The notes beneath the pieces were generated by a model. It saw only the letters and a list, made by a program, of their open reading frames with translations, ran no database searches and was not told the DNA's origin. A DNA stretch of 64,000 nt, from the NCBI GenBank assembly GCA_902765855.1, contig CACXBF010000003.1, positions 25,412 through 89,411 on the forward strand, in the 5' to 3' direction. This stretch comes from an uncultured Ruminococcus sp. (GTDB lineage Bacteria > Bacillota > Clostridia > Oscillospirales > Acutalibacteraceae). Shown one piece after another: positions 10,284 through 50,692 of this stretch. The stretch's first letter is position 1, and each line of letters starts with the position of its first letter. A program made the translations under genes and the position numbers.

Positions 10284-10560
10284 ATTTAGGTCAAGCCTTT
10301 TTAAAGGCTTGCATGGTCGAGGGACGGAGTCCCTCGTAGGTTTTAAGGGCGAAGCCCTTAACCATTCTTTGCTCTTGAGCGACGGACTTTGTCCGTCGCT
10401 TTATTTTTTGTCGATAGTTCATTGGAAATTTTTTTATCTGCGTTAATAAAATTTCCTTGCATATGTCGAGGTTTTGCTTGCAAAACCGATTCTGCGTCTT
10501 GTCCGGTGTGGTCACGCATTGCGTCTTTGGAACGGCGGCTTGCCGCCGATTTGTTGGAAA
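10284..10560. repeat. dispersed modular repeat, copy C (includes alaS terminator)
   Basis: A chain of short perfect palindromes: GCCTTTTTAAAGGC, CGAGGGACGGAGTCCCTCG (10318-10336), AAGGGCGAAGCCCTT (10345-10359), AGCGACGGAC-TTT-GTCCGTCGCT followed by TTATTTTTT (10378-10410), which is a good terminator for alaS, and GGCGGCTTGCCGCC near 10530. The stretch around 10464-10505 is the reverse complement of part of copy F near 36400-36436. Apart from this, the 390-base gap before spoIVB holds nothing recognisable. Confidence 0.75.
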
Positions 10561-25154: not shown

Positions 25155-25199
25155 AAAATCAGCGGAGTAACTTGATTATATGTTACTCCGCTATTTTTA
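25155..25199 (+). terminator. terminator after ackA
   Basis: AGCGGAGTAAC pairs with GTTACTCCGCT and is followed by ATTTTTAT. It also faces the convergent DUF378 gene. Confidence 0.88.
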
Positions 25200-27672: not shown

Positions 27673-27701
27673 GCATAAAAAAAGACAGCCCCTCATACAT
27701 T
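27673..27701 (+). promoter_or_regulatory. predicted sigma-E promoter of bofA
   Basis: GCATAAA (27673-27679, matching KMATAtt in its first five bases), a 14-base spacer and CATACATT (27694-27701, matching CATACAnT) fit the B. subtilis sigma-E consensus. The -10 box lies in the left arm of the hairpin at 27689-27721. Confidence 0.6.
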
Positions 27702-27728
27702 GTAAAAAAGTGTATGAGGGGTTGATTT
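27689..27728 (+). terminator. terminator hairpin that also carries the bofA ribosome-binding site
   Basis: CCCCTCATACA (27689-27699) pairs perfectly with TGTATGAGGGG (27711-27721), followed by TTGATTTT. It can terminate the upstream unit. The GAGGGG of the right arm is also the only Shine-Dalgarno candidate of bofA, 8 bases before its ATG. Confidence 0.7.
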
Positions 27729-27729
27729 T

Positions 27730-27990
27730 ATGCCGTGGTGGGCTATTTTATTGGTATGTGGTGGAGTATTTTTAGCATTGGTTGCTATACGGAAGATTAT
27801 GAAGTCGAAGCACCCTATCCGTTCGGCTCTTTTGGGCTTGCTTTTAGGTCCTGCGTGTATGCTTGTGATAAATATAATTTCTATTTTTACAAGTGTAAGC
27901 ATACCTATAAGCCCGCTTTCTCTCGGAATTTCATCTACTCTTGGTATTCCAGGGGTTACAGCTATGCTACTACTTCAACTGATATGTTAA
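27730..27990 (+). CDS. bofA: pro-sigma-K processing inhibitor BofA
   Basis: This 86-residue membrane protein has the BofA-family C-terminus SIPISPLSLGISSTLGIPG followed by a hydrophobic end (LLLQL). BofA holds the SpoIVFB protease inactive in the mother cell until SpoIVB acts. There is a first helix at residues 3-22 and further hydrophobic segments. In B. subtilis bofA is sigma-E dependent, in line with the promoter found here. No recR neighbour is present, unlike in Bacillus. It converges with the DUF4364 gene. Confidence 0.85.
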   Translation: MPWWAILLVCGGVFLALVAIRKIMKSKHPIRSALLGLLLGPACMLVINIISIFTSVSIPISPLSLGISSTLGIPGVTAMLLLQLIC

Positions 27991-38462: not shown

Positions 38463-39731
38463 ATGGATATACTTATGCTTGGAAGTGGCGGCAGAGAACA
38501 CGCACTTATCAAGAAATTAAAGGAAAGTCCTAAAGCAGGAAAAATTTATTGTGCCCCAGGTAATGGCGGTATTTCAAAAGACGCTGAGTGTGTTAATATC
38601 AGCGTTATGGATAAGGAAGGCATTATTGCTTTTGCTAAAGAAAAGAATATAGACCTTGTTTTCGTTGCACCTGATGACCCACTTGCTGCAGGTGTTGTTG
38701 ACGCTCTTAACGATGCAGGAATCAGAGCTTTCGGCCCTGTTGCAAAGGCTGCTGAAATCGAGAGCAGTAAGGTTTTCTCTAAGAACCTTATGAAAAAATA
38801 TAATATTCCGACTGCTGGTTATGAGGTTTTCTCTGACCCTGAAAAGGCTATTGCATACATTGAGGAGCAGAATAAGTTTCCGACAGTTATAAAGGCTGAC
38901 GGACTTGCTCTTGGTAAGGGTGTTATTATTGCACAAAACCTTGAGGAAGCTAAGGACGCAGTTAAGGAAATTATGGAAGATAAGAAGTTCGGTGAATCCG
39001 GAAACAATGTTGTTATCGAAGAATTTCTTACAGGTCCTGAAGTTTCTGTTCTTGCATTTACTGACGGCAAGACACTCAAACCTATGATTTCCTCTATGGA
39101 CCATAAACGTGCATTAGACGGCGATAAAGGACTTAACACAGGCGGTATGGGCACAATTAGTCCTAACCCTTACTACACAGACGATATTGCAGAAGTTTGT
39201 ATGAAGACAATCTTTATGCCGACTGTTGAGGCTATGAACAAAGAGGGCAGACCTTTCAAGGGATGTCTTTACTTCGGACTTATGCTTACACCGGACGGAC
39301 CTAAGGTTATCGAATACAATTCTCGTTTCGGAGACCCTGAGGCACAGGTTGTTCTTACACTTCTTGACAGCGATTTGGTCGATATTGTCAATGCTGTTAT
39401 TGATGAAAAGCTTGACGAAGTAGACATCAAGTGGTCAAATGATAATGCTGCTTGTATAGTTATGGCAAGCGGTGGTTATCCTGAAGCATACAAAAAGGGT
39501 ATCGAGATGAACGGCTTTGACGAGAACGGTCAGGTTGACGGTGCAGTTGTTTTCCACGCAGGAACTAAGTTTGAAAACGGAAAGTTCTATACAAACGGCG
39601 GTAGAGTCATAGGTGTTACTGCAAAGGGAAAAACTCTTGAGAAAGCTCTTGACAACGCTTATGCGGCTGTTGAGAAAATCAACTTTGACGGCGCTCATTA
39701 CAGAAAAGACATAGGCAGAACAAGAAAGTAA
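38463..39731 (+). CDS. purD: phosphoribosylamine-glycine ligase
   Basis: PurD makes GAR from phosphoribosylamine, glycine and ATP. The 422-residue ATP-grasp protein begins LMLGSGGREHALIKKLKESP and has FPTVIKADGLALGKGVIIA, SMDHKRALDGDKGLNTGGMG and EYNSRFGDPEAQVVLTLL. The start follows AAGAGG. It is the last gene of the pur unit and ends 34 bases before the hairpin that also belongs to spoIIGA. Confidence 0.97.
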   Translation: MDILMLGSGGREHALIKKLKESPKAGKIYCAPGNGGISKDAECVNISVMDKEGIIAFAKEKNIDLVFVAPDDPLAAGVVDALNDAGIRAFGPVAKAAEIESSKVFSKNLMKKYNIPTAGYEVFSDPEKAIAYIEEQNKFPTVIKADGLALGKGVIIAQNLEEAKDAVKEIMEDKKFGESGNNVVIEEFLTGPEVSVLAFTDGKTLKPMISSMDHKRALDGDKGLNTGGMGTISPNPYYTDDIAEVCMKTIFMPTVEAMNKEGRPFKGCLYFGLMLTPDGPKVIEYNSRFGDPEAQVVLTLLDSDLVDIVNAVIDEKLDEVDIKWSNDNAACIVMASGGYPEAYKKGIEMNGFDENGQVDGAVVFHAGTKFENGKFYTNGGRVIGVTAKGKTLEKALDNAYAAVEKINFDGAHYRKDIGRTRK

Positions 39732-39749: not shown

Positions 39750-39783
39750 ATGACATAAATTCAGCCCCCGACTGTGAGATAAT
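39750..39783 (+). promoter_or_regulatory. predicted spoIIG-type promoter with 22-base spacer
   Basis: ATGACA (39750-39755, 5/6 to TTGACA) and GATAAT (39778-39783, 5/6 to TATAAT) are separated by exactly 22 bases. The B. subtilis spoIIG promoter, activated by Spo0A-P, is known for a 22-base spacer. The -10 box lies in the loop of the hairpin 39765-39798, so transcripts would start at about 39790, at the base of the right arm. Confidence 0.55.
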
Positions 39784-39808
39784 AAACGCAGTCGGGGGTG
39801 ATTTTTTT
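39765..39808 (+). terminator. purD terminator that also carries the spoIIGA ribosome-binding site
   Basis: CCCCCGACTG (39765-39774) pairs perfectly with CAGTCGGGGG (39789-39798), followed by TGATTTTTTT. It is a good terminator for the purine operon. GGGGGTGAT of the right arm and its flank is also the Shine-Dalgarno sequence of spoIIGA. Confidence 0.8.
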
Positions 39809-40670
39809 GCATAGGGTTATATACATAGACATACTGTTTTGCGTGAACTTCATTGTCGATTTTATGCTGTTGCTGTCGGTAAGGAAATTTCTTTCTCTAA
39901 AAGCAAGATACCGAAGAATGGTTTTAGGAAGTTTAGTTGGAGCAATTTCGTCATTTGTAATATTTCTGCCGCCGATGAATGAATTTCTAAGCCTTATAAT
40001 TCGGCTTGTGACGGCTTTTGCGGTAGTTTTTGCAACATTTTTTCCGACAAGCAGAAAATCTTTTCTGAAAGCAGTATCAGCATATTTTCTTATAACTTTT
40101 TGTTTCTGCGGAGCTTGTATTGCTTTTTTTATGCTGTTTTCACCGCCTGTTGCTATAAGGAACGGTGCTGTTTATATAGATATTTCACCGATTATGCTTG
40201 TAGGAATAATTTTAGCCTGTTACATAATTATTCGGATTATTTGCAGAGTAAGCGGTCGTTCTTTAGCAAGTCAGGAAATTTGTTGGCTTATGATTGAGAA
40301 TAATGAAAAAAGCGTTAAGCTGATTGCTAAAACGGATACGGGAAATATGCTGAAAGAACCGTTCTCAAATCTACCTGTTATAGTCGCAGAAAGAGAAAAG
40401 CTCGAAGTAATTTTGCCAAATGAGATTTCAAATTATCTTGCAAAGACTGTTTCGGTTAGCAATACTTCTTGTGATTATGTAAGCGGTATAAGACTTGTTC
40501 CATATAATAGTGTGGGCGGAGAAGGTTTATTACCGGCATTTAAACCTGATTCTATAAAAGTTATTTTAAACGGAAAAAGTATAAAGTCAGAGGCGTATAT
40601 CGCAGTAACAAATAGAAAACTATCGGAAAGTTTTTCAGCAATAATTCCATCAGAAATTATATTAAATTAG
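39807..40670 (+). CDS. spoIIGA: sporulation sigma-E factor-processing peptidase SpoIIGA
   Basis: This integral membrane aspartic protease cleaves pro-sigma-E at the sporulation septum. The protein has about 287 residues: five hydrophobic helices in the first 155 residues ([20 protein letters not shown] first) and a cytoplasmic protease domain with the catalytic Asp in [17 protein letters not shown] (near residue 178). A GTG at 39798 lies inside GGGGGTG; the TTG at 39807 gives the standard start [10 protein letters not shown] and is chosen. sigE follows 14 bases later, the classic spoIIG operon. Confidence 0.94.
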
Positions 40671-50408: not shown

Positions 50409-50439
50409 AGCATTAGAAATCAAATAGATTAAATGTAAT

Positions 50440-50692
50440 GATAAGGAAGCGTTTTTCAAATACGGTTTCAAAAGAGAGCAGAGGTCATCGGCTGAAAGCC
50501 TTTGTGGAAACTATGATTAACGACACCGCCTTTGAACATTACTGCGAAATAAGCAGTAACGCCTGCCTGCGTTATGGACATTAACGAGATGACGGATTTT
50601 TATTATATTATCCGTTAAGCTTGGGTGGAACCACGGTGAAAATTCCCCGTCCCAATGTATCCTTAGTGATGCTTTGGGGCGGTTTTTATTTT
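50440..50692 (+). promoter_or_regulatory. T-box riboswitch (threonine) of thrS
   Basis: The leader contains the conserved T-box sequence TGGGTGGAACCACGG (50622-50636) and a terminator (CCGTCCC with GGGGCGG, followed by TTTTTATT, ending near 50690) that competes with the antiterminator. A candidate specifier ACC (Thr) followed by a purine is at 50525-50527. Uncharged tRNA-Thr would stabilise the antiterminator and allow thrS transcription. Confidence 0.92.

Follow-up and report, generated by a model that had tools for sequence, protein, structure and literature searches.

Promoter-embedded hairpins that bury ribosome-binding sites: a candidate read-through insulator at spoIIGA and other sporulation genes of Acutalibacteraceae

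The window, the whole 64,000-nucleotide stretch of DNA that was analyzed, is G000:C3:25412-89411 of the source genome (G000), and plain coordinates below are window positions. Two co-directional genes meet on its plus strand. purD (38463-39731; NCBIfam equivalog TIGR00877, 546 bits) lies upstream of spoIIGA (39807-40670), which starts with TTG at 39807 and encodes the sigma-E processing peptidase (Pfam PF03419, 216 bits); its score against NCBIfam TIGR02854, 186.7 bits, is under the cut-off of 209.55. Ahead of spoIIGA, a -35 box ATGACA (39750-39755) is followed at a distance of 22 bases by a -10 box GATAAT (39778-39783), which TGA precedes as in an extended -10. Transcription would start about seven bases past this box, at approximately 39790. 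The left arm of a predicted hairpin, CCCCCGACTGTG (39765-39776), lies within the promoter spacer, the -10 box is in the loop, and the right arm, CGCAGTCGGGGG (39787-39798), carries the core of the spoIIGA Shine-Dalgarno (SD) sequence, GGGGGTGAT (39794-39802). The T7 tract of this terminator-like hairpin of purD (39802-39808) overlaps the spoIIGA start codon.

The first-pass annotation had described a perfect 10-base stem with a T7 tail, and the sequence bears this out: ten perfect pairs join CCCCCGACTG (39765-39774) to CAGTCGGGGG (39789-39798), and the stem is followed by GA and then seven T. Including G-U pairs, the predicted stem comprises 12-13 pairs (39764-39776 with 39787-39799) around the loop AGATAATAAA. 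The hairpin therefore has the G+C-rich stem and T-tract of an intrinsic terminator. The proposed placement of the SD in the right arm holds for its GGGGG core, but TGAT is mostly outside the stem. The leader folds at -35.8 kcal/mol compared with -20.8 ± 3.1 kcal/mol for shuffled sequences (z = -4.9; none of 200 shuffles was equally stable). In longer RNA the SD is buried, with an opening cost of 22.9 and 23.3 kcal/mol at two window lengths, the second highest of 954 open reading frames (ORFs) in the genome sample described below. When arms were exchanged for foreign ones, none of 240 left arms and none of 240 right arms paired equally well. An Rfam scan gave no match to the hairpin at the gathering score. 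The only match in the window was a T-box leader (RF00230, 93.8 bits; 50429-50657), which adjoins the 5' side of a gene with threonyl-type tRNA synthetase domains.

The closest named relative found was Pseudoruminococcus massiliensis (spoIIGA 95% identical), which NCBI places in the family Acutalibacteraceae, and by inference the genome searches covered this same family. Matches to spoIIGA were present in 131 of 150 family genomes. Leaders from these and from G150 gave 71 entries, of which 70 were scored (G030 was dropped, no start being found). A -35/-10 pair was located in 62 of the 70, and GACA was 21 bases from the -10 box in 36 and 22 bases in 18, that is, 54/62. Gaps of 14-27 bases were allowed, so the peak at 21-22 is not built in. 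For the source genome, the promoter returned by the scorer (spacer 19, inside the purD coding region) was mis-placed and was rejected; 54/62 was kept as computed. The earlier assignment of GATAAT to the loop and of ATGACA to a position 22 bases upstream is upheld, and the long spacer of a spoIIG-type promoter is found directly 5' of spoIIGA. Because a spacer of 21 or 22 bases recurs across the family, the spoIIGA promoter is well supported as real by conservation. It follows from this conserved promoter that RNA started at about 39790 would lack the left arm.

All three Pseudoruminococcus species examined (G000; L002/L005; L066) retain the layout, and changes in the stem preserve pairing (CGCAG, CACAG and GTTGGGGG). 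Outside the genus, no stem of comparable strength was found among the 70 family leaders, and of the 63 whose SD was clear only G115 had one of -8 kcal/mol or lower (9 pairs). Shuffle z exceeded 2 in 9/66 leaders, the three genus species included. The permutation z of the arms went from -3.3 uncorrected to -1.9 after correction for composition and to -1.2 once the genus was removed, so that covariation outside the genus was not detected. The strong stem at spoIIGA appears to be a genus-specific example of the arrangement, and the general design that had been proposed does not extend across the family at this gene.

It had also been claimed that the layout recurs at a second sporulation gene under a different sigma factor. 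The analysis first considered spoIVB (10635) as this gene and rejected it, because shuffled sequences fold as well as its leader does (z = +0.65). Several short G+C-rich stem-loops lie between alaS and spoIVB (10300-10550). The second case proved to be bofA (27730-27990, plus strand; Pfam PF07441, 57.5 bits, cut-off 26.1), the promoter of which we take, from the consensus, to be of sigma-E type. Its -35 box GCATAAA (27673-27679) is followed after 14 bases by the -10 box CATACATT (27694-27701). The -10 box is held in the left arm (27686-27701) of a predicted 16-pair stem and the right arm (27709-27724) contains the SD GAGGGGTTG. In the window, bofA and spoIIGA are the two genes with such strong SD stems.

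SD stems of -8 kcal/mol or lower were found at bofA in 9/59 family genomes as compared with 9/467 control ORFs. Two of the nine bofA genomes (G000 and G084) belong to one genus; of the control stems, some are in spurious-looking ORFs (L108, L180) and one is the bofA stem itself, assigned to a wrong-frame ORF (27735). Leaders were entered for 69 of 108 matching genomes, with L063 (G091) left out, and 65 were scored after removal of G080, G061 and G135 (no start) and G019 (leader too short). A strict sigma-E pattern had 14 matches across the genome and 3 when reversed. Only bofA had a downstream ORF and SD within the set limits, which makes the pattern useless as a gene finder. A terminator-like 12-pair stem with sigma-E-like -35 and -10 boxes on the minus strand was noted at 25160-25193, and no minus-strand ORF with an SD was found downstream of it.

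SD occlusion was then assessed in the window and 60 further stretches of the source genome, covering 1,254,689 of 2,394,309 bases (52%) and 954 SD-preceded, non-overlapping ORFs; the positions of spoIIR and spoIIID were already known when the stretches containing them were chosen. The highest opening costs belonged to bofA (25.1 kcal/mol), spoIIGA (22.9), an ORF without family match at locus L219 (21.9), spoIIR (20.7), dpaA (20.1), a gerXA-type gene (15.4) and yabP (15.1). Six of these seven match sporulation families, as an earlier suggestion of enrichment at such genes would predict. They were followed by a phage terminase (14.5, named by eye), an IS200 TnpA (14.1), a T2SS F protein (13.8), an Rny-like ORF (13.6, by eye) and sigG (13.5). 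The gerXA-type match (150.6 bits) is under its curated cut-off; dpaA, yabP and sigG each pass one. The hypothesis itself arose from bofA and spoIIGA, and spoIIR came from a directed check, which leaves only the rest of the list as blind: at ranks 3, 5, 6 and 7, three ORFs match sporulation families and the L219 ORF has no match. The value for dpaA depends on the folding window, falling to 14.3 kcal/mol with 85 bases and 12.5 kcal/mol with 110 bases plus 40 downstream. Among 40 ORFs drawn at random from below rank 26, no sporulation gene was recognized by eye, and a Pfam scan of 10 of them returned no sporulation family, two having no match of any kind.

Ranking by shuffle z (mean -0.05, standard deviation 1.25; 27 of the 954 ORFs above 3) was less pure than ranking by energy. 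With some names assigned by eye, its top ten were bofA, the IS200 TnpA, an unnamed ORF (L182), a GtrA-like ORF, spoIIGA, the L219 ORF, spoIIR, a MurA-like ORF, dpaA and a PlsC-like ORF; yabP (4.1), sigG (3.9) and a SpoIIQ-like gene (3.8; 58.1 bits, under cut-off) came later. Opening costs were higher in ORFs with sigma-E-like (n = 13, p = 0.0003) or sigma-F/G-like motifs (n = 10, p = 0.0046), by patterns written once the top genes were known; about half of the former set and most of the latter may be chance, as reversed leaders gave 7 and 9 matches, respectively. A stricter sigma-E pattern left 3 ORFs (p = 0.11), and costs were not raised in ORFs with a sigma-A-like motif of usual spacing (n = 41, p = 0.54). 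The general sporulation design proposed in the first-pass annotation is therefore borne out in part. Enrichment and the covariation at spoIIR and bofA described below agree with it, but spo0A, spoIVB, spoIVA and ssp in the source genome are without the device and non-sporulation ORFs also score high by energy, the phage terminase and TnpA being eighth and ninth. spoIIID is intermediate (8.9 kcal/mol) and its own arms pair no better than foreign ones.

The unmatched ORF, L219:11399-12256 (-), encodes 286 amino acids, has no match in Pfam or NCBIfam, and has relatives in 23/60 family genomes, its own included. A sigma-E-like promoter is located in its long SD-burying stem, and it is possibly an unannotated sporulation gene. 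In the IS200-like transposase at rank 9/954, L220:975-1481 (-), a CCTCC-type stretch lying upstream pairs with the SD. ClpP-related ORFs of the same type had raised SD occlusion in the source genome (L074:8756-9535 (-), 11.0 kcal/mol) and in G054 (L285:15009-15752 (-), 12.8 kcal/mol).

The second genus sampled was represented by G054, picked for the layout at its bofA and for being a single contig; 400 kb with 346 ORFs were scanned in 20 stretches, two of which were chosen to contain bofA and spoIIGA. The five most occluded ORFs were YlmC/YmxH (from the spoIIGA-targeted stretch), MscL, bofA, spoIIR and a SpoIIM-like gene (49.5 bits, under the cut-off of 100.2), with sigG at rank 19. spoIIGA was not in the top 24 of the 346. 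The mscL gene at rank 2, L283:13739-14140 (+), is a non-sporulation gene with a strong SD-occluding stem.

The device is best conserved at spoIIR, which was found in 82/100 family genomes. The 32 leaders tested were the loci of the best 30 of the 82 matching genomes together with G000 and G150. Against dinucleotide shuffles, stem strength averaged z = 3.6 and exceeded 2 in 22/32 genomes. In G150 the spoIIR stem is absent and the block at bofA is weaker (12.4 kcal/mol). The best-scoring promoter, from scoring run without a chance control, had GAATA or GTATA 17-18 bases 5' of a CATAAT-like -10 box in 25/31 leaders.

The arms of these stems covary. Matched spoIIR arms paired at a mean of -15.4 kcal/mol and mismatched ones at -9.0 kcal/mol. 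Corrected for composition, the z was -12.2 (31 genomes of 30 genera, with both G000 and G150 kept), and 0/20,000 permutations were as low. For bofA the corresponding z was -6.5 (59 genomes, six same-genus genomes having been removed). In contrast, sigE, a co-transcribed control located in just 26 genomes, gave +1.5, and 240 random ORFs of the source genome gave +0.7. The promoter spacer and the ribosome-binding site thus covary at spoIIR and bofA. Within the genus, the sigG stem has a double difference, G-C versus A-U, and G000 also lacks one of its pairs; in the dpaA stem, C/U differences result in G-U pairs in G084.

The effect of the start site on SD access was computed for 12 genes of the source genome by comparing RNA with 110 bases upstream to RNA from the predicted start. 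The opening cost (kcal/mol) went from 23.3 to 1.7 for spoIIGA, 21.2 to 3.8 for bofA, 20.6 to 2.5 for spoIIR, 20.1 to 4.7 for the gerXA-type gene, 21.1 to 5.1 for the L219 ORF, 13.2 to 4.0 for sigG, 13.0 to 1.1 for yabP, 12.5 to 7.2 for dpaA, 12.0 to 5.8 for dac and 10.4 to 3.1 for the SpoIIQ-like gene. In these ten the range moves from 10.4-23.3 to 1.1-7.2; the other two are spoIIID (8.9 to 2.1) and a sipL-like gene (7.7 to 6.0). The promoter boxes of the 12 were picked by eye, so that their spacers (14 in six of sigma-E type) are not independent evidence. Strong spoIIR stems, of at least 12 kcal/mol, occurred in 18/27 leaders with a co-directional upstream ORF and in 0/3 with a divergent one (p = 0.008, with the divergent class limited to three). 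The same comparison was not significant for bofA (8/39 versus 2/20, p = 0.12) or spoIIGA (6/39 versus 1/26, p = 0.30).

Taken with the observed geometry, the conserved spoIIGA promoter, the enrichment at sporulation genes and the covariation at spoIIR and bofA, these calculations lead us to propose, with a probability of about 0.7, that the element is a read-through insulator tying translation to initiation at the sporulation promoter. RNA reading through from the upstream gene, purD in the case of spoIIGA, would form the hairpin. Where a T-tract is present, transcription would be terminated; with or without one, the sporulation gene's SD would be buried in the hairpin. The promoter of this gene is predicted to sit inside the hairpin, with its -10 box in the loop or the left arm, and because of this position RNA begun there would start in the loop or right arm, lack the left arm and have an open SD. 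Translation would then be tied to initiation at this promoter, because only RNA without the left arm would have an accessible SD. A stray upstream transcript is probably untranslatable and the gene's own transcript translatable; the start sites, the read-through RNA, its termination and the effect on translation are all predictions from sequence.

It is unlikely that the stems are simply terminators of the upstream genes maintained by selection, with genome compaction having overlaid the next promoter and ribosome-binding site and SD occlusion arising as a by-product. The T-tract at spoIIGA agrees with such an origin, as does the finding of at least five T among the six bases before the start in 13/18 strong spoIIR cases and 0/12 weaker ones, and upkeep of a terminator would likewise give covarying stems. 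Against it, four or fewer T are found in 5/18 strong spoIIR and 8/10 strong bofA cases, and 6/7 of the most occluded ORFs are in sporulation families. The terminator that the first-pass annotation made part of its insulator is accordingly retained for most strong spoIIR stems, but for only 2/10 at bofA. T-tracts are common without being present in every case, so what the cases share is SD occlusion, and the terminator is one form of the device.

Chance and composition were also considered, since C-rich bases before a sigma-E-type -10 box and a G-rich SD could form stems by default in a short 5' untranslated region. Left arms do often adjoin the CATA -10 box, ending within one base of it in 12/31 spoIIR leaders and in several bofA leaders. 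Nevertheless, the native arms of spoIIR and bofA far out-pair foreign ones once G+C, C and G content are corrected for, and the dinucleotide shuffles of spoIIR leaders speak against this origin as well, which makes it highly improbable. We give similarly little credence to a regulatory hairpin (attenuator, thermosensor or protein site) acting in the gene's own transcript, with the true start further upstream. The start sites used here are predicted ones and the short dpaA RNA retains its cost of 7.2 kcal/mol, two points in favor of this reading; however, the predicted promoters put the start within the hairpin, the arms vary between genera (22 distinct left arms among spoIIR stems of -4 kcal/mol or lower in 31 genomes), and the spoIIGA site has no Rfam match.

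A recurrent read-through insulator at a subset of sporulation genes, narrower than a general design, is therefore a supported hypothesis. Its wider form, to which we give about even odds, is that in Acutalibacteraceae pairing between the spacer of the promoter and the ribosome-binding site has been selected across the family as an insulator of developmental genes, strongest at spoIIR, then bofA, then by lineage at spoIIGA, sigG, dpaA, yabP and gerA. It would act at promoters of sigma A, E, F/G and perhaps K, would often be fused to a terminator, and would license translation only by initiation at the developmental promoter. Compact genomes can put sporulation genes directly behind vegetative ones, and leaked SpoIIR, SpoIIGA or sigma G could trigger the cascade prematurely or late, or in a cell where it does not belong. 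An element that recurs, covaries and ties translation to the start site would offer a general safeguard against such leakage. The insulator reading predicts directly mappable start sites, points to the L219 ORF as a likely unannotated sporulation gene, and offers a compact terminator-promoter-ribosome-binding-site part.

Several known systems resemble parts of this arrangement. The Spo0A-dependent spoIIG promoter of Bacillus subtilis has a 22-base spacing between -35 and -10, a figure that was not found in the literature text searched. It likewise has a long spacer upstream of spoIIGA-sigE; in the family studied here the spacer is 21 or 22 bases, and in Pseudoruminococcus it also encodes the stem. 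In the transposases of IS200 and IS10, the ribosome-binding site is occluded in RNA coming from outside the element. The occlusion is the same, and an IS200-like TnpA was ninth in the scan of the source genome, but these are mobile elements and not sporulation promoters. No description of the device at spoIIGA, bofA, spoIIR or family-wide was found in the open-access papers searched.

In phage T4, the ribosome-binding site of gene e (and of soc, 49 and I-TevI) is hidden in early long RNA, and a late promoter in the 5' strand of the stem yields RNA without the block (PMC3014915). The logic of a site hidden in long RNA with a promoter inside the stem is shared with the present genes. The T4 case serves the timing of phage lysis and not a cellular set of developmental genes, and the accessible part of that account describes no terminator role (PMC3014915). 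Closer in subject is B. subtilis sigG (spoIIIG), for which a large hairpin has been put forward as a barrier to translating RNA that reads through from PspoIIG; RNA from PsigG cannot form this hairpin (PMC5942855). There too a sporulation regulator is the target of a read-through hairpin. That proposal concerns one gene and its available passages do not mention a terminator, whereas here several genes including spoIIGA are involved and many have a T-tract (PMC5942855). The principle of insulation is thus already known from B. subtilis sigG and T4 gene e, one gene at a time. Its breadth across sporulation genes and its fusion with a terminator appear to be new, and the device looks unusually widespread in this spore-forming gut family.
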